Shown one piece after another: positions 1,470-62,180 of a DNA stretch of 64,000 bases. Positions within the stretch are counted from its first letter, which is position 1; each line of letters begins with the position of its first letter. The stretch covers positions 3,742,501-3,806,500 of the forward strand of contig JAOTOL010001647.1 of NCBI GenBank assembly GCA_034440575.1, read 5' to 3'. The DNA comes from Imbricaverruca yamaguchii. Lineage: Eukaryota; Arthropoda; Thecostraca; Neoverrucidae. The position numbers and the translations under genes are program-made. The notes beneath the pieces were generated by a model. That model was not told the DNA's origin. It was given only the letters and a program-made list of their open reading frames with translations, and made no database searches.

Positions 1470-1945
1470 GTCGTGATGTCATTATATCCGGACGTGCCAT
1501 GTCGTGATGTCATTATATCCGGACGTGCCGTGTTGTGCCATCAATATATGCGGGCCTACCGTGTCCTGCCGTCAGTTAATCCGGACGTGCCGTATCGTGC
1601 CGTCAGTATGTACGGACGTGTCGTGTCGTGCCATCAGTACATCCGGACATGTCGTGCCGTCAGTACATCCAGACGTGTGTCATACCGTCGGTATATCCGG
1701 ACGTGTCGTATCGTGCCGTCAGTATATCTGGACGTGTCGCGTCGTGCCGTCAGTATATCTGTACCTCGAGCGCTGCATGACTGATGTAGTCGATGCGCTC
1801 CTAAACTCCAATAACCAACCAACCAGTATATCCGGACGTGTCATGCCGTCAGTATATCCGGATGTGCTGTGTCATGCCGTCAGTATATCCTTACGTGCGG
1901 TATCCTGCCGTCAGTATATCCGGACGTGTCGTGTCGTGCCGTCAG
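1470..1945 (+). repeat. Minisatellite built from the 3' splice site of exon 1946
   Basis: About 15 imperfect copies, period near 31, of CCGTCAG followed by TATATCCGGACGTG. The last copy is the genuine acceptor and the codons for YIRT. Most copies retain the CAG, so each is a possible cryptic acceptor. A short retroelement-tail insertion interrupts it at about 1770-1827. Confidence 0.92.
1770..1827 (+). mobile_element. Short copy of dispersed retroelement tail
   Basis: GCGCTGCATGACTGATGTAG then TCGATGCGCTCCTAAACTCC and a CAATAACCAACC tail. The same module recurs at more than ten places in the window, here inserted within the minisatellite. Confidence 0.6.
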
Positions 1946-30092
<28,147 letters not shown>

Positions 30093-30720: not shown

Positions 30721-30813
<93 letters not shown>

Positions 30814-31335: not shown

Positions 31336-31339
31336 TGAG

Positions 31340-35400: not shown

Positions 35401-35421
35401 GCTCGAACGTTCTTGACATCA

Positions 35422-44800: not shown

Positions 44801-47800
44801 CGACATCAGACTATGAACCAGGCTGTCCATCACCGACAAGAACCTCGACAATGAACCATGAACTGGGCAACACGTTATGTGACCTATGCAGTCGATGCGC
44901 CCCTAAACTACGAACCGGGCAACTTCATGCGCCGCCCACTCACCAGGTCGGCCCAGCGGCACACCGCGTACCAAATACACGATCCCCCGACCGTACCAGT
45001 GGATGTTTCGCATTCATACGCAGAGTCACTATGCCCTGTGTATGTGGTAGGTCGTGCCCAAAGCAAACCGACTACTTTGGTCTTGCGGCATGCTTCCTTT
45101 TCTGTTGATTATGGGAGCTGATTTATCCATCCGGCCTCTGGGTATGTTGAGCGATTGATGTGGGTGATGTAGTACTGCAGTATTTGTATTTGTAGATTCG
45201 GCTGCCTACAATTTACATTCGTTATTCCTGTGCCGCCGCTATGCGATGGGTGATACAAGATTCACCAGAAAGCTCATTTGAACAACATGATAAGTGAACA
45301 CATATGTGTATGTAATAGCATGTTTTCATAACTCATTGGTAACGTTCTTGAAGTTTGTCAAGTTACGCATCCAAACTATGATTTTCTCAAATTAACAGCT
45401 ATTGGACTAGGGCTAAATAGGGTCTTTCCTTTTTGCTTCTTTCGTGATCTAGACTTCCACATCTAAGGGATTGTCTTCTATTAATTAGTAATGCATTTTA
45501 AAATGTCTCAACCATTCGTATCCAAGGAAGCATTTTCAAGTTTGGTCGCTGACATCATTATGTAAAAAAATGCACTTCCTTCAGGAAGGCAGACTGATGG
45601 CGGAAGAGATATCGCGACTATCCACTTGGGTTACAGCTCGTTATCAGTTTTCCATTCTGGATAAAATCAGGATGCATGCATGGGTATAGGTAGATTACAA
45701 AGACTCTCGCAACATAATGCATTGTGACTGAATTTGATGCGTCAATAATGATGGCTTTCGTGACACTTTGTTTGATTCACAATTTTACAGACCAGTAACC
45801 CTAAGTTGACAAGTTCTTAGGAGTGAATTTAGACGAAAAACCCAATTTCAACACCCACACCACCGCATCACGAAACGATGTGCAAAGCGCGTCAGCGTAC
45901 TCCGTGCACTTGCAGACACAGACTGGGGCGGAGAGAGGAAAACGCAACTGCGACTGTGCACATCGATCACACCACCCATCCTAGAATACAACAGCATCAT
46001 TTTTGCCACCGTTTCAGGAAGTCAGAGCCGCAAGTTAGAAATGATCAAAAATAGCTGCATCAGAGCAGCCACAGGGGCCCTCAGCACCACACCGATAGCC
46101 AGTCTTCTAGTGGACTCAAACACGTCCACACTCCACTTCAGGAGGACACGACAACTGTGCCGCTACCACATCAAAATCAAATCTATTAAAACTAATCCGG
46201 CACAGCGCTCCTTTACGCCTGCCAGATACGCAGAGCCGATTTGCGCGCAAACTTTCACCATATATCATTCAAATTGCCACGGGTCTCTCAGACCTTAACC
46301 ACGGAATGCCATACACTGCAGCTCGGCCGCCCACTAGGCCATTCCGAACTTTCAGCCAACCAAAGGTCGAGTACTTGCTTTCGGAGAAGAAATCTGTCAC
46401 TGTCATCCAATCCACGCCAACATCCCAGGTAACGAAGAAGCAGACCGGTTCGAAAAGCAAGCCTGAGCATTGAACATTTACCCTTGCGTGGAATACTGGG
46501 TAGACGATTCCAAAGCATTCTTACAACGCCACATTCGCCAACATCAACAGATCACATGGATACAACTCAACACAAGACAGCACAAATCCAACCACACCCA
46601 CGCAAGCAAACCAACGATAGGAACATAGGGACATAACACATCAATCAATTTCACCGACAAAAAGACGTCATCCTCACTAGACTTAGAACTGGTTGCACAA
46701 AATTAACAAAGCTTCAATTGGAGGGTTACCAATACACAACATCTCACTGCGACACCTGCAACATCACGTTAAGCGTAGGCCACATCTTGCTAGACTGCAG
46801 TAGCTTTACCTCTCAAAGACAACCACTTAAAGCATTCTGCCAAAGTGAGGGTATCACCCTATTGCTTCCATCGCTTCTCGGTAACAAACACCCAGAAATT
46901 CTTCAATTGCTATTTGAATATCTGTATGCTATAAACTAGTAGTAACACTGTAGACACCACACCACCAATGCTCACATCAACTCGCAATGCATGACTGCGA
47001 CATACTCGTAGGAAACACGTAAATAGCCATCCCCGCGTGGCGTCGGACGTACATGAGCAGAGTTGCGTCCCAGTTAAAATTAAATGGATGCCGTGGGAAG
47101 TAGATGAGCCGACTTGCTTCAGGAAAGCATAAAACTAAAAACAAAAGTAAAAATTAGCCTAGCGTAAAACGATTACCCAGAGGAGCCATCAGACGTAGAT
47201 GAGCCTATTTGCCTTGCAACTCATAACGCAAACAGCTACCCAAAGGTATAACGGACGTAGAAGAGCCGAATTGCAAAACACTGTACTAACCCAACCGATA
47301 ACTCTGCATGTCGTGGCGTAAAACCAACAACCACCAGCCCCCATATTCAACACCTAAAATATCACACAGACTTTGACGTAAAATTCCCTTAACGTAAATG
47401 TCCACTTGCCCGCACTTTGACCGCAAACACTCGCCTTTCTAGACAGATATATAACGTACTTGCTTTAAAGGCGGCGCAAATGGTCTGTATGGTTCGGCAC
47501 GCCTTAAAAATAACTTCTCCATTTTATTTCTAAATTGGTCTGCTGTATTCTCCACCCCATTCCATATTATCTGTATTACCAGTTGATGGCTCACATATGT
47601 TCTGCTCTCCAGGCTCTCATGGAGGTTCTAAGTGTAGCGAGTAAAGCTTCTAAGCCGCTACCGAGCCCATTCCCCAATCAGAAGCGGCCCGAGTACGGTG
47701 AGTGATGATGCGGCGGTGTAGTCCGCTGTCCACCTTTTGCTGCTGTTGTGACGTCATTGACAGGATTTCTGACCGTGCTCATGACTTATCTAATATACTT

Positions 47801-50800
47801 GAATAAAGCACTCGACCGTTCGTTATTTTTTGTGGCATCGAATTGTGTTCATTGCACGAGCGACTCTGCTTGAGTAGAACACCTTCGCATTTCACACAGC
47901 ATTGTGTAGTGCAATGTGATGCCTTGCACTCCATTGGGTACATTGAGGTGGCCTCGTAGATCATTATCTCTGTAGGCTGGTGCAGTGGTAAGTAATATCT
48001 TGCACCAGCTTCTCAAAACACGAGCAGCAATAGCGTGGCGCGGAATGGCGGGATACTCCGCCTGCAGTGGGGTGCGTTGCGCTCCACTGGGTGTACTGAG
48101 TTGGCCTCGTGTATCACTATCTCTGTAGGCAGATGTACTGACCAGTGGTATCCTGCGTCACCTTTTCCAGACACGGGCAGTAAGGGCGTGACGCGGAACA
48201 GCGAGATACTCCGCCTGCTGCTCTACCTGATGGAGTGTGTCGGCCGTATCGAGGAGGAGACTCGCAGGGCGCCGCGGGTCAGTACGGGGGCCAGTGTGGC
48301 CCGGGTCAGTACAGGGGCCAGTACAGGTGTCAGTGTACCCCGGGTCAGTACAGGGGCCAGTATATTGCGGGTCAGTACAGGGGCCAGTGTACCGTGGGTC
48401 AGTACCGGGGCGGTGTACCCCGGGTCAGTACGGGGGCGGTGTACCCCGGGTCAGTACAGGGGCGGTGTACCCCGGGTCAGTACGGGGGCGGTGTACCGTG
48501 GGTCAGTACCGGGGCCAGTGTACCGTGGGTCAGTACGGGGGCGGTGTACCGTGGGTCAGTACAGGGGCCAGTGTACCGTGGGTCAGTACAGGGGCCAGTG
48601 TACCGTGGGTCAGTACAGGGGCGGTGTACCGCGGGTCAGTACGGGGGCGGTGTACCGTGGGTCAGTATCGGGACCAGTGCACCGTGGGTCAGTACAGGGG
48701 CCAGTGTACCGCGGATCAGTACCGGGGCCAGTGTACCGCGGGTCAGTACAGGGGCCAGTGTACCGCGGGTCAGTACAGGGGCCAGTGTACCGCGGATCAG
48801 TACCGGGGCCAGTGTACCGCGGGTCAGTGCAGGGGTCAGTGTACCGTGGGTCAGTACAGGGGCCAGTGTACCGCGGATCAGTACCGGGGCCAGTGTACCG
48901 CGGGTCAGTGCAGGGGCCAGTGTACCGCGGGTCAGTGGCCAGTGTACCGCGGGTCAGTGCAGGGGCCAGTGTACCGCGGGTCAGTGCAGGGGTCAGTGCG
49001 GGGACCAGTGTACCGTTGGTCAGTGCAGGGGTCAATGTACCGCGAGTCAGTGCAGGGTCAGTGTACTGTGGGTCAGTACAGGGGCCAGTGTACCACGGGT
49101 CAGTGCAGGGTTGTACTGGTTGCTAGTATGTGCAGCTGGTCAGTACAGGATGGTGTATCACAGGTCAGCACAGCGTGGGAAAAGTGGTTCGCTGACCTGG
49201 AGTCGGAGAATAAAAAATTTGTATCGGAGCCCTCCAAGAAAAAAGAAGATATTCCTGCCCATGGAGTCGGAGAATAAAAAAAATGGCCTCGGACCCCCAA
49301 AAAAACAGAAAGCTACTGGTGTCGGAGCCCAAAAAAGATGATTGATCAAGAGCATACAACCCGCTTACTTACAAGCATACTTACACCCCTTTACTGGACC
49401 CTAAGTCACTTCAATCACGCCCACTTAATTCACTCGCACTTACTAGGTTTTTATCCGGAAAGCTCTCAAAACTTTGTCTCAACCCGAGTATACCCAACCA
49501 ATCGAGACAAAGATATTCGCACAAAGGGAAGGGGACAAAGCAGCGAGGCGAAACGCGCGGTCAAAGCGTGGTCGCTGTGTAAACATGACTGCAATATTTA
49601 CACAATTTCAAGACCGCTGCTTGACCTCAATTCCTGTCGCCTTTAATAGGAATTCATACGTCAATACGGTGTTACCTTTTTTCTTCAGTTATATGGGAAT
49701 CAATACACTGAAGATATATGTTCCTAATCATGAAATTACGTTGTCTTTATCCTAGATCGAAACATGAATCTGGCGAGACTGTCCCAATAATTTGTTAATT
49801 CTCCTACTCTGGTACGGACATTGTCCTGTCCTAACGGCGACGTATCCAAGGGTGGTCTAATGATGAAATGATAGATTTTCGTAACTATTTCAAATGACGT
49901 CTAATTGTGATCATAAATGGCCCGGAGAACGTTTAAACTCCGTACATGCACAGTTGCAGCTGAAGTGATAAAACTACTATTCACATGCTTTTCTCTTGAT
50001 GGGTTACTGTAGTTTTGCGAATTGAGGTGGAATTCATACCAAAGTAGCCCAAGGTCTTTTGCATTTTTTAAAGCATTTACATGGCTCCCAAAAATAGGTC
50101 TTCTGCCATCAATGAAGTTCGCTAGCTGGTGATATTTTATGCATTTCAATTCGAAATTGAATGCTCTATTTCGTGAAATTAACAGAAATACTGAAAACGG
50201 TCTGAGATGTCCAGAATTACGTTCTCCGGTAGTCTCCGATTGGAATGCGGCTGGAGAACAGGACCTCGGGTCCGATATGCGAGTATTTGACGTCATTGTG
50301 CATATTTCGAGTTCCAGTATGGTGGCAAGATATGGTAGCAATACGAGAGGTTTCGTAATGGAGATTTTTTTGGTGTAACGCCAGTATTTCCAGGAATTAT
50401 GAAGAAGAATCGTGGTATATTCCAATCTTTCCTTCTGAAGAGTCATTTCGACAGAATTCTGAAGACATACGAAAACCTAATCCCTCATATCTTTGTTATT
50501 CAGAATGAGACGAGATTGGCGCAAGCCGAATGACGATTAATCTGTGGTTACAGTGATTGTGTTGGGCCGCCGTCCTGCCAGTGTGAACATGTCCTGGAGA
50601 GTAATAGGCTGAGGTAATAACTAGTTCCGAAATTTACATTATTTTGTTCTCTATGTCGATGCTTTTGTTTCGTTTGGATTTGGGAGCATCGTGCACACCA
50701 ACGATTACCTGAGTAACCCCCCACGAGTTTGGCCTTGATTGGGGCTTAGACTGAGCCAGGACATAGTTTGTAACTGTGCGATCCGTACCTATCTGATATA

Positions 50801-53800
50801 AACAAGGTCTCCACCACAAATGTGTGGGATTTTGCAGCAGCATTTCCTTCATGTAATTTCCTTGCACCTTCAATATCAGTTCTTCCAGGCAAAATAAATA
50901 TAGGTATAGCCAGAGTTGAATGTATTTATTCAAAGCATATTTGCAGATTCATACACACATGCATAACATGCAATATGTTTGACACATGCACAATGCAATC
51001 CAAACAACCACCACAAACTTGTAGGTATTCTGATATAACATGATATGCTTCCTGGGCAATTGACTGCAACCTGCATTTCATGCCTTATGACCTGCTATGC
51101 CATGCTCTTCTGTTCTGTTGTCCAGGCTTCTAATTTGTATGATGGACTGGAAACTGCAACTGCATTGTTGGAGCTGTACTGAGATCCTGGAAACAAAATG
51201 TCATCCATTATTGGAACGTTTCATTCGGAGAATAAAAAAGTTCAACATTTGCAGTCACAATCCTGGAGAATAAAATGTCCTTAGGTCTCCATACTCCAGG
51301 AGAGGCCCAAAATTCCCACCCTGGGTCAGCATATGCCGTGGGTCAGTAGATAACTGGAGTACTGCTGGTCAACATGTGCCCAGGATCAGTTCAGGACTGG
51401 TGTGCCGCAGGTCGGTACAGGACTACTGCGATGAGCTGGCTAGAGTGGCATTATATGACTGCAATGTCAACAAGACATAAAACTACACCTTTCAGGAAGT
51501 TGATTTGACCTCCTGGGGACAGAGCTTTGACTTCCTGAATTGGTTTCCTTTGAACGTCGCAACATACAACTGTATTAACTTTTGCAGTTTTCAACATACT
51601 CGACTCCAGGAATCCGTGCCATCACAATCGTGCCAGCTGATGCGTGTTCATCTGCCAATATCATCCTCCGCTGGCACTTCCTGCTATTATATTTCTAGAG
51701 TGTTTTGACGTCATCTGGAGTTACGACTTCTTCTGCTCCCCCCCCCCCCCACTTTGCAAAAAAATAGTTCCAAGACACTACATGGCTGATGTGCAGAGGT
51801 GTAATGTCACTGGTGCAGAAAAGAGTAGTTGGAATTCCTGACTCGCCGCTGTGCATCAGTGGAATTCGTGGAAGTAGAGCAGTCGGAAGTGCCTAAAACG
51901 CCAACTAGCTAACTGGTGGACGCCGAGCAGGAGTGCGTTGGCGGAGCAACAGTGTGGTGGTCTGTGCTGTCGACTGGGGGCGTCGCATTCGCAAGTCATC
52001 GATTCAGTACATGTCGGCCTTGATCGTGTCGCGTAGCCGCGCGGTACTATGCTGAGCATAACTGTATTGTGTGAAGAGGCTGTGATATTGTACACGCGAG
52101 TGATGTGATTCTGAAGTCATGACATGTATAATGTACCGTGATATCTGTCTTCATTTCCATCTCCATCTGTATATTCATAAATGCCTCACTCTCGCTCAGC
52201 TTCTTCATGACGGTGGTCTCACTGTGATAGGCCTCAGATTCGGTGTGCCTCTACTCTCTTCTATGTGTACTTTCCCGTTTGATCTCAGTCTGTTTCGATC
52301 GCTGATCACGCTGGTCCATTGGGCGCGAATGATCAACCCTGGTCGATGCGCCCTAAAGCCCAAATAACTAACTAACTAACACTGTCCATTTACCTGTATC
52401 TGAGCCTCCACGGTCTGATGTCTGTGATGTGTTTCGCTCCAGAGATCGGACTGCCTTTTGCAGTGATCGTCTTCCCTGCCTTGAGGTCTGGCGTGCTGCC
52501 GCTCAGGTCGGCGTTAGCCACTCTGGGCTGCCAAATGATCGGCGCCGGGTGTCTCGTGGCTGCGGGCGTCACACATGTGCTGTACACCCCACGTCACGTG
52601 TGCTGTATGCGTCACACGTGCTGTATACCCCACAGAGGTCGGGCCTGCCGCCGCTCAGCGGGGCGTTGGCCAGTCTGCGCTGCCAGACGACGCGCGCCGC
52701 GTGTCTGGTGCTGCGTGGCCGACTGACGGCGCACCTGCCTGCGCCGTCTGCCGCCCACTGGCCGCCGCTGCTGGTGGCACTGCTGGCGCCCGGCCTGATG
52801 CCCCGCGGCTTCGTCCAGGACCTGATCACTGAACTGTCGACACAGACCTGCGCGCTGTCCGAGGTCAGTGGGGTTGTTTGTTTGTTTGTTGGGTGATTCA
52901 CGACGCGCTTTATGCACATTCACGGCTGGTGGCGTCGCCCACACTGTTTGCCGATCGGTCGCGGGATTGGGAAATGTCCGGACCGGTGCGAGTGTCGAAC
53001 CCGTGACCTTTGGTGTACCATCCTCGACCCGAGGTCAGTGGGTGGTACCCGGGGTCTGGTCACCGAACTGTCGATGTAATGCGGCGCGCTGTTCCGAGGT
53101 CATTGGCTGGTATCCAAGGAGGAGGAGAAGGCGCGGTGTCATGTGTGTGATGTGATGTGATATAGGCAAGAAAGGCATATATATCGTATCAAAGTGAATA
53201 TACCATGGATAGAATGCCGTCGTTGAAATGTCACAGGTGAATGGATTAGTGTCCCGTCTGTCTGTGACGCCAGGTTCTGGTGCTGATGATGACCCGTCTG
53301 TCTGTGACGCCAAGCTCTGGTGCTGATGGGGACCTGCCTGTCTGTGACGCCTGGTGCTGATGATGACCCGTCTGTCTGTGACGCCAGGTTCTGATGCTGA
53401 TGGGGACCCGACTGTCTGACGCCAGGTTCTGGTGCTGATGATGACCTGTCTGTATGTGACGTCAGGTTATGGTGCTGATGGGGACCTGTCTGTCTGTGAC
53501 GCCAGGTCCTGGTGCCTGTGCTGCGGCGGCTGGGTCGTCAGGCGAGGTGCGTCTCCATGTCGGACCCGGATCACGGACGGCCACTGCAGGTGTTGGCCGA
53601 GCTGTGCGAGGTGCGCGCCGTCGGGAAGCGGCCCGTCTGCGACCTGCTGGTCACTCTGGTCAGTACTCGACCCCTGTCCTCTCCGCGCTGGTCATCCAGT
53701 AGTTAACCGGACCCATTCTGCCCGTCGCTACTGGCGTAGACCGATCGCATATGTCAACACTCGTCACACGAAGCGGGCGCTGTGTAACATGCAGGCGATG

Positions 53801-54861
53801 TACCCCTAAACCACAACTAACTGACATCAAACAGGAACAGCGGCCTGTCTGGAAACGTGTAGCTGGGCATTGCTTCACTACCGCGGCATAGTTATGTGAC
53901 AATTAGCATTTAAATGGAATTAGGGGACGCCATGATGTTACATGCTGTTCTTGGTGCCTCAGTTAATGCTATCAACCCTCCAATAATCAATACTGCAGTC
54001 GGCAGTGTGCTCTCAATAACTCCTCATTGTATGTATCCTTCCATGTATTTGATGGGTAACGTTAATTGGAGCGACCCGGCCCGACCGTCGTGTTATTGAA
54101 CCCTGACGGTCGAGGCGGACGAGGGGAGTGGGGAGGGGCGGGGATGGCCGAGTGGTTAAGGTACCAAGAGTTTAAGGTTAGGTGGCTATGGGTACCAAGA
54201 GTCCCGGGTTCGACACTAGCGCCGATCAGGACATTTCCCAATCCCGCGGCCCACCGGCGAAGCAGTGTGGGCGGCGCCATTAGCCGTGAATGCACATAAA
54301 GTGCGTCGTGAACCACCCAAATAAACAAACAAACAAGAGGGGGAGTGGGGAGAGAGGAGAGACAGGGAGACTGAGCAATTGCGGTCGGTTTGCAATTCCC
54401 CTGCACGGCATGAATCTCTTGGTTGTTGGGTGGTTCGCTACGCACTTCATGCACATTCACGGCTGATGGCACCGCCCACACTCGCCCGTGGGCCACGGGA
54501 TCGGGAAATGTCTCCAGTGGTCTGAGTGTCGAACCCGGGACCTTTGGCACCCAGAACCCAGCACTTTAACCACTCAGCCATCCCCGCCCACGGCATGGAT
54601 CCCGGCCTTGTGTCGCAGTACGGGAGAACCATAGCACGTCTCCTGTTCTCGCTCGTTAAGGACTTGATGACACCTTATACTGTCATAACTCTATGCTCTA
54701 TAACATGCTATGCTCCTAGCTCTATAATCCACGTGCCACGTTGCCACGTATCTGCTCATGTGTATCCATCTGTCTGAACGTTCAGTTGACCTGCTGCATG
54801 ACACCTTGTACTTCATGGGCAGCTTCGGGGTCAGTTGGACGTTTGTGTGTGCGTGCGTACG

Positions 54862-54921
<60 letters not shown>

Positions 54922-57900
54922 GTGCGTTGTGCGTGTACGTATGTGTGTGTGTGTGTGTGTGTATTGGTGATTGTGTCTCATGTCTGTCCAATCTAGCCAT
55001 TTGTTATTTGTTTGTTTGTTTGTTTGTTTATCAGGGTTTAGGGGCGCATCGACTGCGGTGGTCATGCAGCGCCCATCTGGCCATCTGTAACTCGTTTGTC
55101 CGAGCTCATCTATCCTCTGCCCACTACGTTCTATCCCAGCCGCCCCATCTGTCCGTTCCTGTGTAGACTGTCTGTGACCCGTCTGTTCTGTTCCGCCTGA
55201 CCTGTTTTTATTCCGCGCCACTGTCGTGTCATGGTCTGCACGGCTAATGTCGGTGTCGACGTACATGTCTGACCTTACTGTGTATACATCTGACCTCCAT
55301 ATGCGTAGGTGTGACTTCTGTTTGCACGTCTGGCCGTCTGACATGTCTGACCTATGTGTGTCCACGTCTGACCATGTGTGTCCATGTTTGACCTCTGTGT
55401 GTCCACGTCTGACCATGTGTATCCATGTCTGACCTGTGTGTCCACGTCTGGCCTCTGTGCCCATGTCTGACCTATGTGTGTCCATATCTGGCCTCCGTGT
55501 GTCCATGTCTGACGTCTGCGTGTCCACGTCTGGCTTCTGTGTGTCCACGTCTGACCTCTGTGTGTCCATGTCTGACCTATGTGTGTCCACGTCTGACCTC
55601 TGTGTGTCCATGTCTGATGTCTGTGTGTCCACGTCTGACCTCTGTGTGTCCATGTATGAGCTCTGTGTGTCCATGTCTGACGTCTGTGTGTCCACGTCTG
55701 ACCTCTGTGTGTCCACGTCTGACCTTTGTGTCTATGTCTGATGTCTGTGTGTCCACGTCTGCCTTGTGTGTCCATGTATGAGCTTGTGTGTCCACGTCTG
55801 ACCATGTGTGTCCATGTTGACCTTGACCTCTTGTGTCCACGTCTGACCATGTGTTCCATGTCTGACTCTGTGTGTCCATCTGGCCTCTGTGTGTCCACGT
55901 CTGGCCTTTGTGTCCAATGACCTGTGTGTCCACGTCTGGCCTCGGTGTGTCCACGTCTGGCCTCTGTGTGTCCACGTCCGGCCTTTGTGTGTCCATGTCT
56001 GATCACTGTGTATCCACGTCTGACGTCTGTATGTACACGTCTGGCCCCTGTGTGTCCACGTCTGACCTCTATGTGTCCACGTCAGACCTCTGTGTGTATC
56101 CACGTCTGACCTGTGTGTGTGTGTCCACGTTTGACCTCTGCATGCTGCCCTTTACAGCCCGAGTGGCTGCCGGAGCCGCTGTCGGCCGCAGCCGGTCGCG
56201 AGGTGAGCGCACTCTCCTTCCTGGGCCCGTTCATGCGCTACTCTGTGCTGACCGAGGACGACTCGCGGCTGGCGGCCAAGGTGTACCGCACTGCCACTGG
56301 CGCCGAGGCCACCCGCTCCCTCAACAAGACGCTGCAGCAACAGCTGGACAACGTCCGGGTCAGTCACGTCGGCAGGCGGAGGCAACACTGTCGGTCTGTG
56401 CTCACGCTCTGTGACGGCCTTGTACTTAATGGAATTCAATGTTCGATTTTTATTGTATTTTGTTGTCCTAAGCTATTACGGCTACATTCTGTGTTTTCGT
56501 GGTTTATTTTTATGTGTTATAACGGGTACATTTTACGTTTACGTCTTTATTTTTGCTCGGGGCCTATTTTTGTTCGGGGTCATTCTATTGAGCTGCATTC
56601 TGCATTTACTTTTTAATTCTGGGATATTATGGGTACATTCTACTTTTACATGTTTGTATATTCTGGGTTGTATGGCTACATTCTGTACTTACGTGTTTTG
56701 GTTCGGAGCTATTATGGCTGCATTATATGTTTGCACGGCTCCTTATTTTGTACTGCTATGGCTACATTCTATATTTGCATGGCTTATTATTGTTGGCTAT
56801 TACGGGTACATTCCTTGTTTACATGGTTCTTTATTCTCGGGTACTACGGCTACTTTTATGGTTACATGGTTGTGTATTTTGGGCGCTTATTGATGCATTC
56901 TACTTTTACCTGGTTATTTATTTTGGATTATGGCCATATTCAATCTGTACATGGTTTTTATTCTGGGCTATAATGGGTACATTGTACGTTTACATGGTTG
57001 CACATTACATGGCAACTAGTGGTATCTTCGTTCACCTTCACCTGACTCGCCGTCAAGTGGTCTAGGCTCGACGAGCTAGCTCTGACACCTTATAATTGTG
57101 CACACTAACCCCATTGTGACGTGATCTGGGATGTGATGCCAATGTGACCTTGTCGCGGTCGATGCACTCCCAGACCTCAATGACTAATTATCATTGTAAA
57201 TATACTTGTTATGGGTACAATGTGATCTTGTGGTCAACGCACCCACAAACCTCAATAACAAACATTGTAAATATCTTCGTTATGAGTGCAATGTGATCCT
57301 GCTGCGGTCAACGCACCCCAAATGTCAATAGCTAACGAACATGGTGACATGCGAATGAAAGATAGATGATTGTTGATGGCATATGGTCCCATTCGGTTTT
57401 TAATCATGTGTAGTAAGTACTAAGGTGAAGGCAAGACTCGCCTGGCTGTTACATTCCTTGTGGCTGGGGTGGTGGGGAACTGTTGCACTACTGTTCCCGG
57501 GTCCCAACTGGGCAGGGCTCACCACCGTTACGACAACAGCTGTGTCGTCAGCTGAGCCACGTCACAATAACTACACATGACCGCCCGGAAAATGTCGTGT
57601 CAGCCCGTTGCCCACCTAGCTGGAGTAGATTGCTTTCGATGTGAAGTAGCAGCTGCTGCCAGCTTCCTCTCCATTTGTGCCACCGTGGTAGAGCACAGTT
57701 GGTGCCGGTGCGCCATTCTTACCATTGTCACGAAAATCCTCCCTAACACCTGACACCGCAGGCCAGTGATACATTACAACCGGCGTTTTGCACTGATTGA
57801 ACTTATATCTGCCATTGAATCATTAAGCAGTGTTTCTGAGGGCCGGGATGGGATACATAATGAGCCTTTGCGACACGTACCTTCCTCTGTGGCAGGGGAG

Positions 57901-60900
57901 CTATTGCATATTCTTAATCACACATGGAAAAATGGTCTGTACCCTCCATCGTGGAGCCAGGCTAGTGGTTCCTGTCATAAAACCTGGAAAAAGCTGATGA
58001 CGCCCTCTGGAGCATCGCCCAATCTCATTGACGTCCGCTTTAGGCAAGCTAATGGAGAAGCTTTTGAACTGACGCCTGTCCTGGTTTTTAAAACAGCATG
58101 ACATCTTCGTAAGTGCGCAATGTGGCTTTCTAAAAAACAAAGGCACCACTGGCCGTGTTTTAATTTTAGGCACCGAAGTACGCCTGGCTTTTCGAAGTAA
58201 GAGACATTTAGGTGCCGCTTTCTTTGAAATTGGAAAAAGCCTCCGACACCACGTGGCATCGAGGTGTTCCTTTGAGGGTGTATACACATGGAATCACGTG
58301 GGCACCTTTTTACAAAGCTTCTTAACGAATCGGTGTTTCGTATGCGAATTGGCAACTGCCTCTGATTGGTATGTGCAAAAGAACGGAGTCCCACAAGGAG
58401 GTGTCCTGAGTGTGACTTTTTTGGTGATATGAACAATGGTATCGGGGAATCCTTTACTCAGGGTGTTGGGCGATCCATATTTGTGGATGACTGCGATATG
58501 GTCATGTACATCACGAACGCTGTTGATGCAAAGACAGCTGCAACTAGCCGTCAAACATCTAGCGAGCTGGGCCAGTAAAAACGGTTTCCGCTTCTCCACG
58601 ACAAAGACTGCCCTTCACTTCTGCCGCCGCCGCCTATATCCCAATATGGGGGTCTTATTGTGCCGGTGGAGCCAGTAGTCCGGTTTCTGGGGGTGCACTT
58701 TCAATCACGTTTGACCTATTCACATCATCTCAAAACGTTCTGAGATAATTGTGTTAAAACTCTAATATTAAAATGGTTGGCTCGTATGTCTTCTCGAGCA
58801 GACCGGGCAATATCTCAGTTCATGCTATATCGCTCGATCGTCCGTTCAAAACTGGACTATGCTTGCTTTATTTACGGCGGAGCTTGTTTGGCCAGTAAAC
58901 GCACCCTGGACCCAGTGCATCACTCCGCACTTCGCGTTATTACTGGAGCTTTCCGCAAATATCAAACGGCTAGTCTCTCGGCGGAGACTGACGAGCTCCC
59001 GCCCTGTGTGCACCGGGAACAGCTTCGAATACGTTACGCCTGCAAACTGTGACAACTTCTGGGTCACCCAACCTATGTCTGTGTATTCTCCCTCCGCGTG
59101 TCAACAATGCTCTTCGACGAACGGCATGGGGGGACGAGTAGTCTAGGAGTAAGTTGCCCGTCTCACAATCGAAAGAGTGTGGGTTCGAGTCTCACCCGTC
59201 GCTACTCTTCTCCCGCGGCTAATCGGCGTGAGAGATTAGCGACGCTACATGACTCAACTGTCGACGTGTCGTAAAACCCAACCACCACCACCACCACGAA
59301 CGGCATGGGAGTGCCGTCCCGTACCGTGCGCGAATGCAACTACTGTTTCATGAGAGCGGAGTACGACTTCGAAGTGTTCTGCGAACTTAGCGCAGGTCGA
59401 TCCCCCCTGGGAACTGATCACACCTGTAGTGGATATATCTCTCGCCAGCACAAAAAACCGATACCACTCCGCATGAGTTTCAAGCGCTTGCTATAGAACA
59501 CACCGAGTATTTCCCAGAATTTACCGTTACAAGCACACGTAGCGGCTTCTCACTGTTGCGACGTGCTTCTCACATCCAACACTCACGTCTGTGTATTCTT
59601 CCGAGCTTATTGCTATTTAAAAAAGTATGTGTTTCATTGAAGTGTCCGAAGACCCGCTACATATTATTTCACGGATTCCTTAAGTAGCCTTTTGGCGCTC
59701 AAGACAAGTTTCGAAATTCCAGACCTAACGAAAATCCATTGTGTTATGGCCACAGATCCACCTGCACCACATCTGTCACCGAGTCCCTCTGATGATCCGC
59801 CTCCACTCCACAGGCCCATACGCACCACATCGGACACAGAGTGAGTCCCTCTGATGGCCCACTTCCACAGCCTCGCTTGTGCCATATCTGCCACGGGTCT
59901 CTTTGATGGCCCACCTCCACTCCACAGACTCGCCTGTGCCATGCCTGCCACGGAATCCCTCTGATGTTTCACCTCCATTCCACAGACCCATCTGCACCAC
60001 ATCTGCCACGCGCTGCTGGTCAACTCTGGCTCGCGCGAGGCGACGCTGGACCTGCTGGCTCGTCTGCTGACTGCCAATGAGCGGCGCGCCCAGCTGCACC
60101 CCGACGAGCGCCTGGTCAGCGGCGACGGCCTCATGCTCAACCTGGTCACCGTGCTGATGAGGCTGGCAGACAAGGTGAGCGGTCAAGCTTACTGTACTTA
60201 TGGGGCTGGCAAACATAGTGAGTGGTTGAATCTACTGAAGTTCTCCTGGCAAACATCTCCATTTGGTTGTGAATTTATCGGCTTTGGCACTGCTGATCGC
60301 TCCCAATGATTTCGTTGCAATTGGACCCTCTGTTGGTTGATGTCAATTCCAGCTGTGGGTTAGACGCTTGCCATCTCGAGACTCTGTGCATGTGGGGCAG
60401 ATCGTCAACAGTCTGCCATTGGGAGTAATTTATTGGGTTGGTGAGTGCCCAGCAGCTGAATGCGACCCTATTCAATGCAATGGGCGTGTTGCCGTCTCTG
60501 TGTCCATCTCTCCACCTCTTTATCTATCTCTCTGATATATCTATGTATCTATGTCTATCCATCTACCTATCTTTATCTCTGTATGTCTGTCTGTATCTCT
60601 CTTTGATCTGTCTGCCTCTCTATCTAGGTTCTATCTCTCTCGCTCTCTCTCCCTCTCTCCCTCTCTCTCACTCCCTAGCTCGCTCTCTATCGCTCTCTCT
60701 CTCTCACTTCCTATCTCGCTCCCTTTCGTTCCCTCTATCTCCCGCTATCGCTCGCTCTATCTCTATTTCTATCCATCTATCCATCTATCTCGCTCCCCTT
60801 CTGTCTCCTGTTGAATTTGTTTCGTCTCCCATTTCTGGACTAATGTATGTTGTGCTCACGGTAGGTTTGTGGATAAATTATTACCCTGATTTTTGTCATT

Positions 60901-62180
60901 ACGGATGGGTGTAACTCGATTTTACCTAGTCGAATGTTATCTGGCCATACGAATAAACATTCTGTGTATTTACATAGTTCGTTTAGTTCTTACACGACCT
61001 AAGCGATTTCCTTTCCTGGCTGCGATTTTTACATCTTGTATCGCATTCCAGGTGAAATTAGATAAGGTAGATGCCAACTATACGTTCCACCCCAAGTTCC
61101 GCTTCAAGATAGTGGAGGAGACGAGAGTGAAGATGAACTCACAAGAAGCCGAGGAGTGGACGAAGGAAATGGGTAAGCCCCTTACAATCAAAGTGAAGAA
61201 GCCGTGGGGGTCGTGGTAGCTCAGTTTGTAGGATATTTGTCTCTTCACCGCTAGATCGTGTGTTTGAATCCCACGGCCGGCAGAATTACTGAGTCTATCC
61301 ATGGCCAACTGGGGAGAGAGGTTGACGGCATGTGACATAGCCGTTGAATACGTGATAAGAAGGCGAGGTTTTTCTTCTTCGTGATGAAAGTTAGGTGACC
61401 ATACTGGAGCGTGGGTGGCTGTGGAAATTGTTGGAAACCCCCGAAATATATAATATGTCAAGGATTGCGAATAAAAGAAACCACAAAGGACGTGGATCTT
61501 TGTTATTCCGTAGAAATGTAAATCCTTTTTAAACACAGCTAAATGCATTGGGTTTATCAGAATACTTGATATGCGTCACAGTGCGGTTTATACCAGTACA
61601 GAAATGAAGTTCTCTCTTTCGGAACCAAACAAATACCTTATCTTTCCAATGAAAAAAGGGACTTTGCGCCTATTATTCTGCGAATCCATTCAAAATTAGG
61701 CATGCATGGCTGTTTTGCACTAGTGTATCCTAGCTTGCATGAATATGTATTTATAACGGTATATTACTGATAGACGAGGCTTGTGACGTTTAAGTGTCGC
61801 GTAATGCCCCATGCCGGTGTCGGACCCGGCCGATATGTACCCGCCTGATTTGTACCGGCCCGAGATGTGCGACGATACCCGCCCGTGGCAAGTGTCGGTG
61901 ACGCGTGCTGCCCCATGCCGATGTCGGACCCGGCCGATATGTACCGGCCCGAGATGTACCATGCCCGCCTGTGACAAGTGTCGGTGACGCGTGCTGCCCC
62001 ACGCCAGCGTCTGACCCGGCCGTGACCTGGGAGGAGCCGTCGTTTCACACCGAGTGCTGGTACCTGACGCTGCACTGTCTGCACCTGTCCGTGCTGCCGG
62101 CCACACGCAAGTACCAGCACCGGCTGCGAGCCATCCGCGACTACCAGAAACTGGCGAGTGCCTGCCGCGAGATCACCCCA
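35861..62180 (+). CDS. UBE4B: Ubiquitin conjugation factor E4 B (Ufd2 family), 12 exons, 3' end outside window
   Basis: E4 ubiquitin ligase that extends ubiquitin chains on pre-ubiquitylated substrates and works with the Cdc48/p97 ATPase in proteasomal degradation (family knowledge). Visible: N-terminal [18 protein letters not shown], matching human [20 protein letters not shown]; a Ser/Pro/acidic linker much shorter than in vertebrates; then Ufd2-core motifs, including LMECVGRIEEE, FVQDLITEL, QVLAELCEV, LSFLGPFMRYSVLTEDD, LHPDERLVSGDGLMLNL, NYTFHPKFRF and LHLSVLPATRKY...RLRAIRDY. Exons join to 1764 bases in one frame. The rest of the core and the C-terminal U-box lie beyond the window. The start ATG is chosen because it opens the conserved N-terminus directly. 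Confidence 0.94.
36255..36630. repeat. Long imperfect inverted repeat (foldback) in UBE4B intron 1
   Basis: Arms of about 165 bases, 36255-36420 and 36465-36630, pair through matching blocks: TATTTATAAGGG/CCCTTATAAATA, CCAGCTG...ATGACCC-type, GCCAGTCAG(C/T)TG and CTTCAA. The central spacer is about 45 bases. It may be a foldback transposon or MITE; no terminal duplication was established. Confidence 0.8.
36633..38100. other. UBE4B intron 1, no gene recognised
   Basis: AT-rich. It contains CCTAACCTA and GGTTAGGTTAGGTTAG patches near 37080 and 37775, common in arthropod non-coding DNA. Confidence 0.45.
38122..38571 (+). repeat. Tandem copies of the 3' splice site and start of UBE4B exon 2
   Basis: Copies with CTGTCAG then ATG(C)GGAGA(C/T)GGC start their coding-like part at 38229, 38316, 38403 and 38514 before the real one at 38572 (spacings 87, 87, 111, 58). 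The 38403 copy spells [16 protein letters not shown], nearly the true N-terminus. The non-coding part is a TGGTTCTGCTGTGACAGAC block plus a TG run. None of the copies has a donor, so they would act only as decoy or alternative acceptors. Confidence 0.93.
38572..38689 (+). CDS. UBE4B: UBE4B exon 2: conserved basic N-terminal motif
   Basis: Acceptor GCTGTCAG, donor GTGATT (weak); 118 bases, phase 0 to 1. [12 protein letters not shown] is the conserved Arg-rich motif, followed by a Ser/Pro/Gln linker. The acceptor and the first 20-65 coding bases are repeated four or five times immediately upstream; this last copy is the one that continues in frame to a donor. Confidence 0.88.
38690..39585. other. 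Intron, no gene recognised
   Basis: GTGGCCCATTCCACAACAAA at 39218 is close to the reverse complement of sequence at 41255-41280, suggesting inverted copies of one old repeat. Confidence 0.45.
39590..39785 (+). repeat. Dispersed repeat, copy 1
   Basis: Shares AGAAATGAAGTTC, TTCAAAATTAGGCATGCATG and GAACGGTATATTACTGA with 61555-61790, in the same order and spacing. Probably an unclassified mobile element. Confidence 0.75.
40665..40860 (-). mobile_element. tRNA-derived SINE, minus strand
   Basis: The reverse complement has GCTCCAGTAGCTCAGTTGG and TTAGAGTGCTGGCC (A box and anticodon arm), GGGTTGGAGTCGC (weak B box), then a GC-rich body with CCCCGGCCGGGAGTGTCAG. Confidence 0.7.
40861..42235. other. 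Intron with old duplications
   Basis: Segments at 40970-41280 and 41590-41790 are diverged direct copies that share GCA/ACATT(A/G)TGACTGTC and TCGATTTGTCGTGGAAT(G/T)GGCCA. No coding similarity. Confidence 0.55.
41305..41440 (+). repeat. Degenerate ACCCTTGACTGCA repeat
   Basis: About ten units, period 8-15, of CCCTTGAC(C/TGCA). Confidence 0.85.
42234..42282 (+). mobile_element. 3' fragment of SINE family B
   Basis: GCCATTAGCCGTGAATGTGC then AAAAAGCGCGCCGTGAACCA, matching the 3' part of the element at 54137. Confidence 0.75.
42775..42838 (-). mobile_element. Fragment of dispersed retroelement tail, minus strand
   Basis: The reverse complement reads GGGCGCTGTATAACCACTGC, AGTTGATGCGCCCTAAAACC, CAAATAAC. 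Confidence 0.65.
43024..43208 (+). CDS. UBE4B: UBE4B exon 3: acidic and serine-rich linker
   Basis: Donor GTCAGT at 43209. DSGSRMEMDPSSTDEM...DAMETDQMERSSTKRLR resembles the human [21 protein letters not shown] region. Two acceptors are possible: GCGGCAG at 43017-43023, used here because it is in phase with exon 2, and TACTCAG at 42991-42997, which has a better pyrimidine tract but is out of phase unless another exon intervenes. Confidence 0.75.
43209..43470 (+). repeat. Minisatellite derived from the donor of UBE4B exon 3
   Basis: About ten units, period 25-26, of GGGTCAGT(C/T)GGCTAGGTA then (C/T)C(C/G)TGCCCA. The first is the genuine donor (CTCCGG then GTCAGTTGACTGG). Several units keep GGGTCAGT and could act as donors. 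Confidence 0.85.
43566..43633 (+). mobile_element. Dispersed retroelement tail
   Basis: TTGGGCTCAAAATGACCTCG, GCGCGCCCTTAAGCCC and an AATCAATCAATC tail. Confidence 0.7.
44280..44459 (+). CDS. UBE4B: UBE4B exon 4
   Basis: Donor GTAAGC; 60 codons, phase 0 to 0. It begins with a Pro/Ala-rich stretch, then AVCRVLCVSYSGS and DFTNFDNFIDQ, aligning with LVCKIFRVSW...FSDFKDLIGQ of human UBE4B. The acceptor is the tandem AAGCAG, so a one-residue isoform (with or without the first Gln) is possible. Confidence 0.85.
44460..45790. other. UBE4B intron
   Basis: A tail fragment of the dispersed retroelement lies at 44872-44906 (GTGACCTATGCAGTCGATGC). No gene recognised. Confidence 0.5.
45800..47340 (+). 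mobile_element. Degraded non-LTR retrotransposon: RT end, RNase H, Cys motif and 3' UTR
   Basis: Readable with frameshifts: KFLGVNLDEKPNFNTHT, DTDWGGERKTQLRL, ILEYNSIIFATVSGSQ, GALSTTPIASLLVDS (end of the RT region); HANIPGNEEADRFEKQA (RNase H end motif); CDTCNITLSVGHILLDC (C-terminal Cys/His motif). This is Jockey/I-like organisation. The 3' UTR has about four GTAGATGAGCC(GA)TTGC-type repeats (47045-47275) and ends GGCGTAAAACCAACAACCAC, which resembles the SINE family A tail. Same family as 25060-26140. Confidence 0.88.
47613..47697 (+). CDS. UBE4B: UBE4B exon 5
   Basis: Acceptor GCTCTCCAG, donor GTGAGT; 85 bases, phase 0 to 1. ALMEVLSVASKASKPLPSPF aligns with ILMEVLMMSTQ...NPF of human UBE4B. 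The long Ser-rich vertebrate insert that follows is absent here. Confidence 0.87.
47930..48170 (+). repeat. Partial duplication of UBE4B exon 6 and its upstream intron
   Basis: A unit of about 155 bases is present twice: TTGGGTACATTGAGGTGGCC...ATACTCCGCCTGC (about 47935-48066), and CTGGGTGTACTGAGTTGGCC...ATACTCCGCCTGC, which enters the true exon. The first copy carries diverged exon 6 sequence (about 48017-48066) whose acceptor is damaged (TCTCAAA in place of TTTCCAG). Confidence 0.88.
48171..48277 (+). CDS. UBE4B: UBE4B exon 6: start of Ufd2 core
   Basis: Acceptor CTTTTCCAG, donor GTCAGT; 107 bases, phase 1 to 0. LRLLLYLMECVGRIEEETRRAPR matches [20 protein letters not shown]. A diverged copy of its 5' part lies about 155 bases upstream, and a minisatellite made from its 3' junction follows. 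Confidence 0.9.
48278..49165 (+). repeat. Minisatellite derived from the donor of UBE4B exon 6
   Basis: About 33 units, period 26, of ACCGCGGGTCAGTACAGGGG then CCAGTGT. CCGCGG-GTCAGTAC is the exact end of exon 6 plus its donor. Nearly all units keep (C/T)GGGTCAGT. Confidence 0.95.
49170..51325. other. Intron sequence separating two parts of the exon 6 donor array
   Basis: GAGTCGGAGAATAAAAAA occurs twice near 49200-49285, and a related CGGAGAATAAAAAA at 51216. An open frame on the minus strand at 49901-50446 has no recognisable similarity. No gene is called. Confidence 0.45.
51330..51432 (+). repeat. Detached degenerate piece of the exon 6 donor array
   Basis: CCGTGGGTCAGTAG, CCAGGATCAGTTCAGG and CCGCAGGTCGGTACAGG units match the 48278-49165 minisatellite 2.2 kb away. 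Confidence 0.7.
51440..52310. other. UBE4B intron, no gene recognised
   Basis: Unremarkable apart from a poly-C run at 51738. Confidence 0.45.
52318..52380 (+). mobile_element. Dispersed retroelement tail
   Basis: TTGGGCGCGAATGATCAACC, TGGTCGATGCGCCCTAAAGC, CCAAATAACTAACTAACTAA. Confidence 0.7.
52476..52635 (+). repeat. Partial duplicate of UBE4B exon 7 (5' part)
   Basis: 52482-52571 reads, in the same frame, SGVLPLRSALATLGCQMIGA then GCLVAAG, against SGLPPLSGALASLRCQTTRA then ACLVLRG of the true exon. A CTTCCCTGCCTTGAG tract precedes it and there is no donor. The spacer contains two ACACGTGCTGTA(T/C)(A/C)CCCAC-like copies of the true acceptor. Confidence 0.88.
52636..52863 (+). CDS. UBE4B: UBE4B exon 7: Ufd2 core
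   Basis: Acceptor TACCCCACAG, donor GTCAGT; 76 codons, phase 0 to 0. LSGALASLRCQTTRAACLVLRG aligns with LLSNIRSQCISHTALVLQG, and MPRGFVQDLITELSTQ with LPYGFIQELVRTTHQ. Diverged copies of its 5' part (52480-52570) and its 3' end with donor (53058-53112) flank it. Confidence 0.91.
52873..53028 (-). mobile_element. SINE family B inserted at the donor of UBE4B exon 7
   Basis: The reverse complement reads GGGTTCGACACTCGCACC (B box), ACATTTCCCAATCCCGCG, GCCGTGAATGTGCATAAAGC and ends in CAAACAAACAAACAA. Flanked by CCGAGGTCAGTGGG at 52859-52872 and 53029-53042, so the target-site duplication includes the exon end and splice donor. Confidence 0.9.
53050..53112 (+). repeat. Partial duplicate of the 3' end and donor of UBE4B exon 7
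   Basis: GTCACCGAACTGTCGATG...GCGCGCTGTTCCGAG then GTCATTGG matches ATCACTGAACTGTCGACA...GCGCGCTGTCCGAG then GTCAGTGG of the real junction. Confidence 0.87.
53245..53505 (+). repeat. Minisatellite built from the 3' splice site of UBE4B exon 8
   Basis: About seven units, period 33-39, of CTGTCTGTGACGCCAG then GTTCTGGTGCTGATG. The last continues as the real acceptor and GTCCTGGTGCCTGTG, the codons for VLVPV. Nearly every unit keeps GCCAG-GTTCTGGTGC. Confidence 0.94.
53506..53658 (+). CDS. UBE4B: UBE4B exon 8: Ufd2 core
   Basis: Acceptor GACGCCAG, donor GTCAGT; 51 codons, phase 0 to 0. VLVPVLRRLGRQA and PLQVLAELCEV...RPVCDLLVTL align with IFIPILQGLALAA and PLMALGELCET...HPVCNLVASL. Confidence 0.93.
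53770..53822 (+). mobile_element. Dispersed retroelement tail
   Basis: GGCGCTGTGTAACATGCAGG, CGATGTACCCCTAAACCACA, ACTAACTGAC. Confidence 0.6.
54137..54338 (+). mobile_element. SINE family B, full length
   Basis: The head GGGGATGGCCGAGTGGTTAA looks like a tRNA-Ser/Leu A box, with B box GGGTTCGACACT, body ACATTTCCCAATCCCGCG, and GCCGTGAATGCACATAAAGT then a CAAACAAACAA tail. Confidence 0.85.
54421..54599 (-). mobile_element. SINE family B, full length, inverted relative to 54137
   Basis: The reverse complement begins GGCGGGGATGGCTGAGTGG, has GGGTTCGACACTC, and ends AACCACCCAACAACC. It forms an inverted pair with the copy 85 bases upstream. Confidence 0.87.
54846..54963 (+). repeat. GTGC/GCGT then GT microsatellite
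   Basis: About 18 GCGT units followed by a GT run. Confidence 0.95.
55005..55078 (-). mobile_element. Dispersed retroelement tail, minus strand
   Basis: The reverse complement reads GGGCGCTGCATGACCACCGC, AGTCGATGCGCCCCTAAACC, and a GATAAACAAACAAACAAA tail. It is the best-preserved short copy. Confidence 0.8.
55225..56130 (+). repeat. Minisatellite of TGTGTGTCCACGTCTGACCTC type
   Basis: About 45 units, period 18-19 paired into 36-37, of GTGTGTCCACGTCTGACC and GTGTGTCCATGTCTGA(C/T)C. It ends about 28 bases before the acceptor of exon 9 and shares no exon sequence. Confidence 0.95.
56158..56358 (+). CDS. UBE4B: UBE4B exon 9: Ufd2 core
   Basis: Acceptor CTTTACAG, donor GTCAGT; 67 codons, phase 0 to 0. 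PEWLPEPLSAAAGREVSALSF then LGPFMRYSVLTEDD align with [20 protein letters not shown] and LGAFFSFSVFAEDD of human UBE4B. Confidence 0.95.
56359..57115. other. UBE4B intron with degenerate repeats
   Basis: 56415-57005 is built of about 18 diverged units, period 30-36, around GGGTACATTCTACTTTTACA and TGGTT. No coding similarity. Confidence 0.6.
57120..57330 (+). repeat. Three tandem copies of the dispersed retroelement tail
   Basis: Period about 80: ATGTGA(C/T)CTTG...CGGTC(G/A)A(T/C)GCAC...CCTCAATGAC, with AACATTGTAAATAT(A/C)TT between. Confidence 0.75.
57750..59490 (+). mobile_element. Dead non-LTR retrotransposon (reverse transcriptase), interrupted by a SINE
   Basis: Frameshifted RT blocks in order: SAIESLSSVSEGRDGIHNEP, LLHILNHTWKNGLYPPSWSQ, CGFLKNKGTTGRVLIL, SIFVDDCDMVMYIT (catalytic FVDD), ASKNGFRFSTTKT, RFLGVHFQSRLTYSHH, SIVRSKLDYACFIYGGA, LDPVHHSALRVITGAFR. 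Jockey-like, but a different family from 45800. It lies in the intron between UBE4B exons 9 and 10 with no intact frame. Confidence 0.9.
59131..59295 (+). mobile_element. SINE family A inserted in the LINE, with target-site duplication
   Basis: GGACGAGTAGTCTAGGAG head, GGGTTCGAGTCTC B box, GTCGTAAAACCCAACC tail with CCA repeats. Flanked by ACGAACGGCATGGG at 59117-59130 and 59296-59309. Confidence 0.92.
59750..59985 (+). repeat. Four tandem copies of the 3' splice site and start of UBE4B exon 10
   Basis: Unit about 60-65 bases: CTCC(A)TTCCACAG then (A/G)CCCA(T/C)CTGCACCACAT and CTGCCACGG, then TCCCTCTGATG. Copies start their exon-like part near 59757, 59812, 59867 and 59925. The real one is 59986. 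All keep CACAG. Confidence 0.94.
59986..60174 (+). CDS. UBE4B: UBE4B exon 10: Ufd2 core
   Basis: Acceptor TTCCACAG, donor GTGAGC; 63 codons, phase 0 to 0. ICHALLVNSGSREATLDLLA and DERLVSGDGLMLNLVTVL align with [20 protein letters not shown] and DDRLVSTDGFMLNFLWVL. Its first 25-30 bases with the acceptor recur four times upstream. Confidence 0.96.
60520..60815 (+). repeat. Pyrimidine-rich TCTC/TCTA microsatellite
   Basis: Mixed CTCT, TCTA, CTCG and CCAT units in the intron before UBE4B exon 11. Confidence 0.93.
61052..61172 (+). CDS. UBE4B: UBE4B exon 11: Ufd2 core
   Basis: Acceptor GCATTCCAG, donor GTAAGC; 121 bases, phase 0 to 1. VKLDKVDANYTFHPKFRF and ETRVKMNSQEAEEW align with IKLETVDPTYIFHPRCRI and ETRVNATMEDVNDW. 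Confidence 0.95.
61207..61375 (+). mobile_element. tRNA-derived SINE
   Basis: GTCGTGGTAGCTCAGTTTGT (A box), GTGTGTTTGAATCCCACG (B box), body GAGAGAGGTTGACGGCATGT and tail-like GATAAGAAGGCGAGG. It starts 35 bases after the exon 11 donor. Confidence 0.75.
61555..61790 (+). repeat. Dispersed repeat, copy 2
   Basis: Homologous to 39590-39785 through AGAAATGAAGTTC, TTCAAAATTAGGCATGCATG and AACGGTATATTACTGA. Confidence 0.75.
61797..62007 (+). repeat. Tandem copies of the 3' splice site and start of UBE4B exon 12
   Basis: Two upstream copies, period about 100-118, of GTGTCG(GTGA)CG(C)GT, GCTGCCCCATGCCG then (A/G)TGTC(G)GACCCGGCCG. The third is the true acceptor CCCCACGCCAG followed by CGTCTGACCCGGCCG. 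The upstream copies have lost the AG (GCCG). Confidence 0.9.
62008..62180 (+). CDS. UBE4B: UBE4B exon 12: Ufd2 core, last exon in window
   Basis: Acceptor ACGCCAG; 173 bases, phase 1 to 0. EEPSFHTECWYLTLHCLHLS and VLPATRKYQHRLRAIRDYQK align with [34 protein letters not shown]. Donor GTCAGC at 62181 is inferred from the loss of similarity after REITP. Later exons are outside the window. Confidence 0.88.

Follow-up and report, generated by a model that had tools for sequence, protein, structure and literature searches.

Tandem arrays stand beside many exons in the 64,000 bp window analysed here (Imbricaverruca yamaguchii, contig JAOTOL010001647.1, positions 3,742,501 to 3,806,500 of the forward strand), and some of their units seem to contain the splice site itself. 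The original prediction for this DNA was that a lineage-specific process repeatedly duplicates splice junctions and so lengthens introns. The question is therefore whether splice junctions are a target of tandem duplication in this barnacle, or are caught in a process that acts on introns as a whole.

Gene models across the window

The window contains parts of PIK3CA and UBE4B and lies on a contig of 3.9 Mb (assembly of 767 Mb, 1430 contigs). The PIK3CA model consists of 21 exons, five of which are located upstream of the window, and p110-alpha was the best PDB match. UBE4B displayed a match to Ufd2P_core (PF10408, E 7.7e-48) and extends beyond the window to about 78155. The closest proteins were from barnacles in both cases. 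Those of PIK3CA were P0001 (82% identical) and P0002 (Amphibalanus, 75%), and those of UBE4B were P0241 (Amphibalanus amphitrite) and P0242 (Pollicipes pollicipes), both 81% identical. A. amphitrite and P. pollicipes are thoracican barnacles belonging to separate orders. PIK3CA and UBE4B are adjacent in the window, and this linkage may be kept in Pollicipes too, as the contigs bearing their best matches P0001 and P0242 are of equal length (42,549,640).

Gene models were obtained by a purpose-written spliced protein-to-DNA aligner with the barnacle orthologues as queries. The PIK3CA junctions in the window were identical with P0001 and P0002, and the UBE4B orthologues agreed at most exons. A total of 28 exons with 54 internal junctions were detected in the window, the same number of exons as in the original prediction; the two complete genes with their flanking DNA provided 41 introns and 82 junctions. 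Where the UBE4B alignments were in conflict, P0242 was taken at 43024 (P0241: 42982) and 38689 (P0241: 38671), and P0241 at 64881 (P0242: 64872) and for the single exon 52636-52863, which P0242 splits. Small UBE4B exons were left out when supported by P0242 only (42825-42836 and 62344-62348) or P0241 only (48025-48108), as was 63030-63040, which was aligned with P0241 and P0121.

One PIK3CA exon, 9767-9947, was set by hand and replaced the aligned pieces 9704-9778 and 9837-9947. The frame at 9704-9947 is broken relative to the orthologues around 9767-9836, and the start at 9767 was placed out of frame. Residues 507-530 of the orthologues align to the array copy 9704-9778 and are absent from the exon-proximal copy. 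This frame break may reflect a sequencing error, allele damage or altered splicing.

Putative mobile sequences were also noted in and around the window. A tRNA-Thr-like sequence, possibly a SINE head, is located in a PIK3CA intron (3060-3133). An Rfam search gave no match at gathering scores. The open frames 57754-59052, 45810-46298 and 25231-25659 look like fragments of non-LTR reverse transcriptases, and a Pfam search of five pieces of such frames gave none above the cut-off. A DDE_1 transposase fragment (PF03184, E 3.2e-14; L013:1560-1853) lies upstream of PIK3CA. Elsewhere in the genome, COX1 and neighbouring mitochondrial genes were detected on a 405 kb contig (L009, G000:C996:269410-273747), as a nuclear insertion or a misjoin. 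A tRNA-Leu(UAA) gene separates COX1 from a putative COX2 at this locus and a tRNA-Lys gene follows, in the gene order of Pancrustacea.

Splice junctions copied into adjoining introns

A junction-centred 40-mer was aligned to the adjoining 1.5 kb on its own intron side. Controls were the intron-side flanks belonging to junctions at distances above 3 kb, and a junction passed when its own flank scored above every control. The expectation that arrays resemble their own junction more than shuffled controls do was borne out, as the copy test was passed at 22 of the 82 junctions of the two whole genes (18 of 54 within the window), with about one of 82 expected.

Splice site and exon bases had been claimed within the array unit at 13 named junctions. 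Twelve of these passed (1946, 6875, 9947, 11761, 12618, 16722, 38572, 43208, 48277, 53506, 59986 and 62008), that at 16722 weakly, with a score of 13 against a control maximum of 12 and the exon match absent. The claim did not hold at 8570, which failed the test (p 0.027) and whose array contains about 13 final exon bases but not the donor. The larger duplications reported at 48171 and on both sides of exon 52636 were recovered at 48171, 52636 and 52863, except that the best match at 52636 falls outside the junction. Additional passing junctions were 9767 (score 35, hand-placed), 60174 (score 19) and 47697 (score 14).

Table 1. Gene models and junction-associated arrays, in window coordinates
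Feature	Position	Strand	Basis
PIK3CA (orthologue of class I PI3K p110-alpha), exon 6 through the final exon	1946..30089	+	Spliced alignment of P0001 and P0002
UBE4B orthologue, exons 1-12 of 22	35861..62157	+	Spliced alignment of P0241 and P0242
About 16 copies of a 31 bp unit across the exon 1946 acceptor, including 14 bp of exon	1469..1959	+	
About 87 copies of a 41 bp unit with a higher-order period of 256 bp, reaching 6 bp into exon 6875	3216..6880	+	
35/105 bp array downstream of exon end 8570, about 13 last exon bases, donor excluded	8673..9174	+	
63-115 bp array across the hand-placed 3' splice site 9767, about 15 exon bp	9335..9781	+	
70 bp unit in 12 copies, made of the donor at 9947 and the final 42 bp of its exon	9906..10744	+	
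3.2 copies of a 31 bp unit over the exon 11761 acceptor, including 24 bp of exon	11686..11784	+	
Degenerate array, basic unit about 25 bp, stopping 3 bp short of exon 12618	12168..12614	+	
Two 32 bp copies by the donor of the exon ending 16722, weak junction relation	16808..16868	+	
58/87 bp array over the UBE4B exon 38572 acceptor, including 27 bp of exon (codons for MRRRRLARL)	38176..38598	+	
27 bp array beginning at the 43208 donor, including 2 bp of exon	43207..43435	+	
Two copies of a 153 bp unit over the exon 48171 acceptor, including 48 bp of exon	47920..48218	+	
About 30 copies of a 27 bp unit beginning at the 48277 donor, including 2 bp of exon	48276..49111	+	
40 bp array over the exon 53506 acceptor, including 10 bp of exon	53253..53515	+	
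58 bp array over the exon 59986 acceptor, including 25 bp of exon (codons for THLHHIC)	59750..60010	+	
Two copies of an 86 bp unit over the exon 62008 acceptor, including 15 bp of exon	61824..62022	+	

Alignment of arrays to 60 bp exon edges, with shuffled controls, gave p<=0.05 for nine of 55 arrays. All nine were located on junctions, and the resemblance was seen in none of the 41 off-junction arrays (three were at 0.051). Exon-only windows of 60 bp are weak for arrays with 2-10 exon bases (3216, 43207, 48276 and 53253), and the 40-mer test was therefore added.

A unit spanning the exon-intron boundary was found at 12 of the 82 junctions, each of them 6 bp or more within a TRF array; arrays with a period below 8 were excluded from all counts. 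Both boundary types were affected, with 10 of 41 acceptors and two of 41 donors in arrays (PIK3CA and UBE4B). The number of exon bases within an array varied from 2 (43208 and 48277) through 6 (6875) to 42 (9947). In 15 arrays whose unit includes splice site and exon bases, wraparound alignment to the exon-proximal unit gave 1 to 88 extra copies at 68-92% identity. The units of the degenerate array before exon 12618 were similar to the acceptor and the initial exon codons (68% identity). One authentic junction beside the exon is intact in each case as placed by the orthologue alignments, with the frame at 9767 ambiguous. Arrays thus do grow into the intron and leave an intact junction, as originally stated, although this is partly a matter of definition, because the exon is the single copy matched by the orthologues. 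A dispersed repeat of about 55-70 bp, with at least 39 further matches in the genome, occupies 1770-1825 within the array before exon 1946.

Junctions compared with other intron positions

Minisatellites (period at least 8) made up 25.3% of the 76,084 intron bases of PIK3CA and UBE4B. Twelve of the 82 junctions (14.6%) were inside a minisatellite, compared with 24.7% of intron points. A local match score of at least 18 was obtained at 14 of the 82 junctions, at 23.0% of 3000 intron points and at 1.7% of 1500 exon-inner points. When the copy test was displaced 20, 40, 70, 100, 150 and 250 bp into the intron, it was passed at 20, 18, 25, 27, 25 and 31 of 82 points, respectively, and at 400 bp at 24 of 80; displaced points thus ranged from 22 to 38%, versus 27% for the junctions. 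Random intron points passed in 71 of 300 cases (24%) and exon-inner points in one of 37. Compared with displaced or random intron points, junctions of the two genes displayed no surplus of repeats or local copies, and the same was true of array coverage in the kinesin genes described below. In addition, 41 of the 55 intron arrays of PIK3CA and UBE4B made no contact with a junction. The similarity is clearly local when set against shuffled introns, yet junctions are ordinary when compared with other positions in the same introns. A process aimed at splice junctions, which the original prediction had proposed, is not supported by these data.

The same proposal held that selection keeps only the intronic expansions. 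Exon interiors were indeed nearly free of arrays (46 of 3850 bases), as expected from it.

A long array spans many points although it was born once, and each array was therefore also counted as one unit. In this count, 11-14 junction hits were found against 1.8-4.7 expected (2.7-6.1 fold, P 2e-6 to 1.4e-3), where the range reflects the choice of unit and the required overlap. When arrays were randomly re-placed in their own introns, the observed 14 of 55 on a junction compared with 4.9-7.3 expected (1.9-2.9 fold, P 0.0002-0.0054), and the observed 23 of 55 on or within 50 bp of a junction with 12.5-13.9 (P 0.0004-0.002).

Kinesin genes on other contigs were analyzed for comparison. A Pfam kinesin search of the genome gave 126 exon-like matches, of which 68 were fetched with 400 bp flanks; matches with internal stops were skipped, as were some that lay in very long open frames. 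Junctions were assigned by splice consensus and 110 of 136 exon edges were retained, domain ends and edges with poor splice scores being omitted. Arrays contained 12 of the 110 junctions (10.9%; 6 of 64 acceptors and 6 of 46 donors), compared with 16.2% of flank points. The one-unit count was 12 against 4.9 expected (2.4 fold, P 0.004). Since these arrays lie on many other contigs, junction arrays extend beyond the window, and the statement that two unrelated genes are affected can be widened to the kinesin genes.

The one-unit excess in the two genes and the kinesins indicates that array placement is not wholly random. The assertion that placement is far from random therefore stands when arrays are counted once, but fails against array coverage and point controls. 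Collapsed coverage over the 192 pooled junctions stood at 14% on the junction itself and at 15-16% between 3 and 25 bp into the intron; it fell to 10-11% between 25 and 75 bp and to 4% between 130 and 160 bp. On the exon side it was 6% at a depth of 20-30 bp. The far intron end of this profile is lowered, because the kinesin flanks are just 400 bp and deep positions are sampled mainly where arrays are few. The one-unit excess is a zone of about 100 bp of intron next to the exon, and the junction lies on its shoulder without a spike of its own.

Array coverage was 28.0% in PIK3CA, 19.5% in UBE4B and 5.1% between them, and 16.8% and 9.0% in the 80 kb upstream and the 96 kb downstream, respectively. 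Since a codon scan found candidate exons in the flanks, these values show only that arrays occur beyond PIK3CA and UBE4B and are denser within them than in the adjacent sequence. The higher coverage in both genes than around them could indicate a gene-linked process. Very dense tandem repeats were observed 66-90 kb upstream of the window (L010-L012), where they occupied 33 and 46% of two 12 kb bins.

Divergence of the copies and origin of the arrays

Pooled over the 15 aligned arrays, copies retained 82.6% of the exon part, 85.4% of the intron part and 88.1% of the splice dinucleotide; as array means, retention was 83, 84 and 77%, respectively. AG or GT was kept at 347 of 394 dinucleotide positions, to which the array at 6875 contributed 170 of 174 and the remainder 177 of 220 (80%). 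In a set of 24 arrays, half of them from kinesins (12) and half from PIK3CA and UBE4B (12), divergence was 15.9% for the intron part and 19.3% for the splice dinucleotide, and unit length was divisible by 3 in six. A clear sign of selection on the copies was absent from these comparisons of dinucleotide, exon and intron divergence and of frame (15 and 24 arrays).

Within the exon-derived parts, differences were found at 164 of 933 third codon positions (17.6%), 111 of 988 first positions (11.2%) and 118 of 983 second positions (12.0%). The surplus at third positions fits synonymous change in the constrained exon copy, which is counted once per array copy, although constraint on the array copies themselves is not strictly excluded. 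No gradient of identity with distance from the exon was found at P 0.05 in eight of the nine arrays tested; the array at 6875 displayed a weak one (rho -0.23, P 0.03). The mean AT skew of intron arrays was -0.19, compared with -0.06 in the remaining intron DNA, and the mean GC skew was weak (0.059, positive in 32 of 55). Near-perfect isolated two-copy duplications (32 of 180 runs) had mixed lengths of microhomology at their breakpoints.

These arrays are probably mirage minisatellites, i.e., products of an abundant and nearly neutral tandem duplication of intron DNA that is tolerated where an intact junction adjoins the exon. In introns, the genome would frequently generate tandem duplications that are tens to a few hundred bases long, presumably by slippage, unequal exchange or break repair, and certain of them would include an exon edge by chance. 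If the exon-proximal copy of the splice site is the one used, splicing would persist and junction duplications would be close to neutral; they would then grow and decay as ordinary intronic minisatellites. Selection would purge duplications within exons. Arrays near exons may survive better, which would produce their excess in the one-unit counts. That excess leaves room for an exon-proximal bias, and the simplest account adds one ingredient, either better survival or a modestly higher birth rate near exons. Splice sites seem to be caught in a repeat process acting on whole introns rather than to be its special target.

It is rather unlikely that duplication itself is favoured near exons, over roughly the initial 100 bp of intron together with the junction, and drives intron growth, with transcription, splicing, GC-rich exon edges or chromatin as the cause. 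Such a bias would explain why collapsed coverage is 14-16% from -3 to +25 bp and falls to 4% at 130-160 bp, why 23 of 55 arrays are on a junction or at most 50 bp from one, where 12.5-13.9 are expected, and why a one-unit excess recurs in the kinesins; the richness of the two genes in arrays relative to the surrounding DNA and the difference in AT skew (-0.19 versus -0.06) also point to it. However, raw coordinates show no surplus at junctions, arrays are also common in the 80 kb upstream (16.8%, gene content not established) and the GC skew is just 0.059. Better survival near exons together with one constrained copy could moreover yield the same gradient.

Maintenance of the extra splice sites by selection, e.g., as decoys or alternative sites in regulated splicing, is very improbable. 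Intronic minisatellites of Caenorhabditis elegans have been linked to alternative splicing (PMC4039745), and the 347 of 394 retained AG/GT positions would agree with such a role, but 170 of them come from the array at 6875, and without it retention (80%) is similar to that of other columns. Moreover, the dinucleotides are more divergent than the intron part (19.3 versus 15.9%), and six of 24 units keep the frame. Least probable of all is an assembly artefact. Copies of the 15 two-gene arrays differ from the proximal unit by 8-32% and are therefore not stuttered reads, and the same pattern occurs in kinesin genes on many further contigs; these observations weigh against the broken frame around 9767-9836 and against some kinesin arrays with near-identical copies (no difference in L046, a few percent in the L034 donor array, L064 and L067), whose copy number may be miscounted.

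Comparison with known systems

Tolerated mirage minisatellites have precedents, although the original prediction knew of no described mechanism of this kind. In amphioxus, tandem repeats over exon-intron boundaries at 5' and 3' sites have been described as "mirages", in which splice signals occur in many, but not all, copies and haplotypes differ in length (PMC3087553). In the account of Adh3 and the globins BflGb6 and BflGb9 given there, splicing was undisturbed by mirages, and the authors put forward a model in which mirages give rise to introns (PMC3087553). PGBD5 and, by citation in the same report, troponin C are further cases (PMC3902484). The barnacle arrays share the structure described in these reports: the unit lies over the boundary at 5' and 3' sites, the authentic boundary is retained and AG or GT occurs in many copies. 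Amphioxus units are given as 10-160 bp (PMC3087553, PMC3902484). The systems differ in host, a cephalochordate versus a barnacle, and frequency relative to other intron points was measured in the barnacle. In contrast, undisturbed splicing and instability of length are reported for the amphioxus mirages, whereas the barnacle arrays are known from the DNA of one assembly.

The amphioxus genome is very diverse. Highly diverse genomes might be what links amphioxus and barnacles, as the genome of one barnacle has also been reported to be very diverse (PMC8270832). It is conceivable, though doubtful, that exon-proximal duplication had separate origins in barnacles and cephalochordates, is a chief contributor to the growth of their introns and supplies duplicated splice sites for new introns or alternative exons.

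In paralogues from human segmental duplications, minisatellites expand in or beside exons and at exon-intron boundaries, where they can create introns (PMC2812944). The human cases described alter coding sequence or make novel introns in recent paralogues, whereas the barnacle arrays lengthen existing introns. In the intron gain by tandem genomic duplication described in PMC4974935, the duplicated segment bears splice signals as in the barnacle; the barnacle arrays differ in that they come without a demonstrated new intron.

Searches of open-licence literature, some of them directed at barnacles, gave, among the matches listed, no earlier report of junction-spanning arrays in barnacles. As far as these listings go, the host group and the measured frequency are new, and the structure itself is known. 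The controlled frequency is between about one junction in nine and one in four, depending on the measure. In a repeat-dense genome, junction-targeted mutation is easily inferred when a random-point control is omitted. Mirage minisatellites are thus not confined to amphioxus genes, and the barnacle arrays provide a system in which to follow how introns lengthen, how repeated splice sites are tolerated and how introns might be gained.
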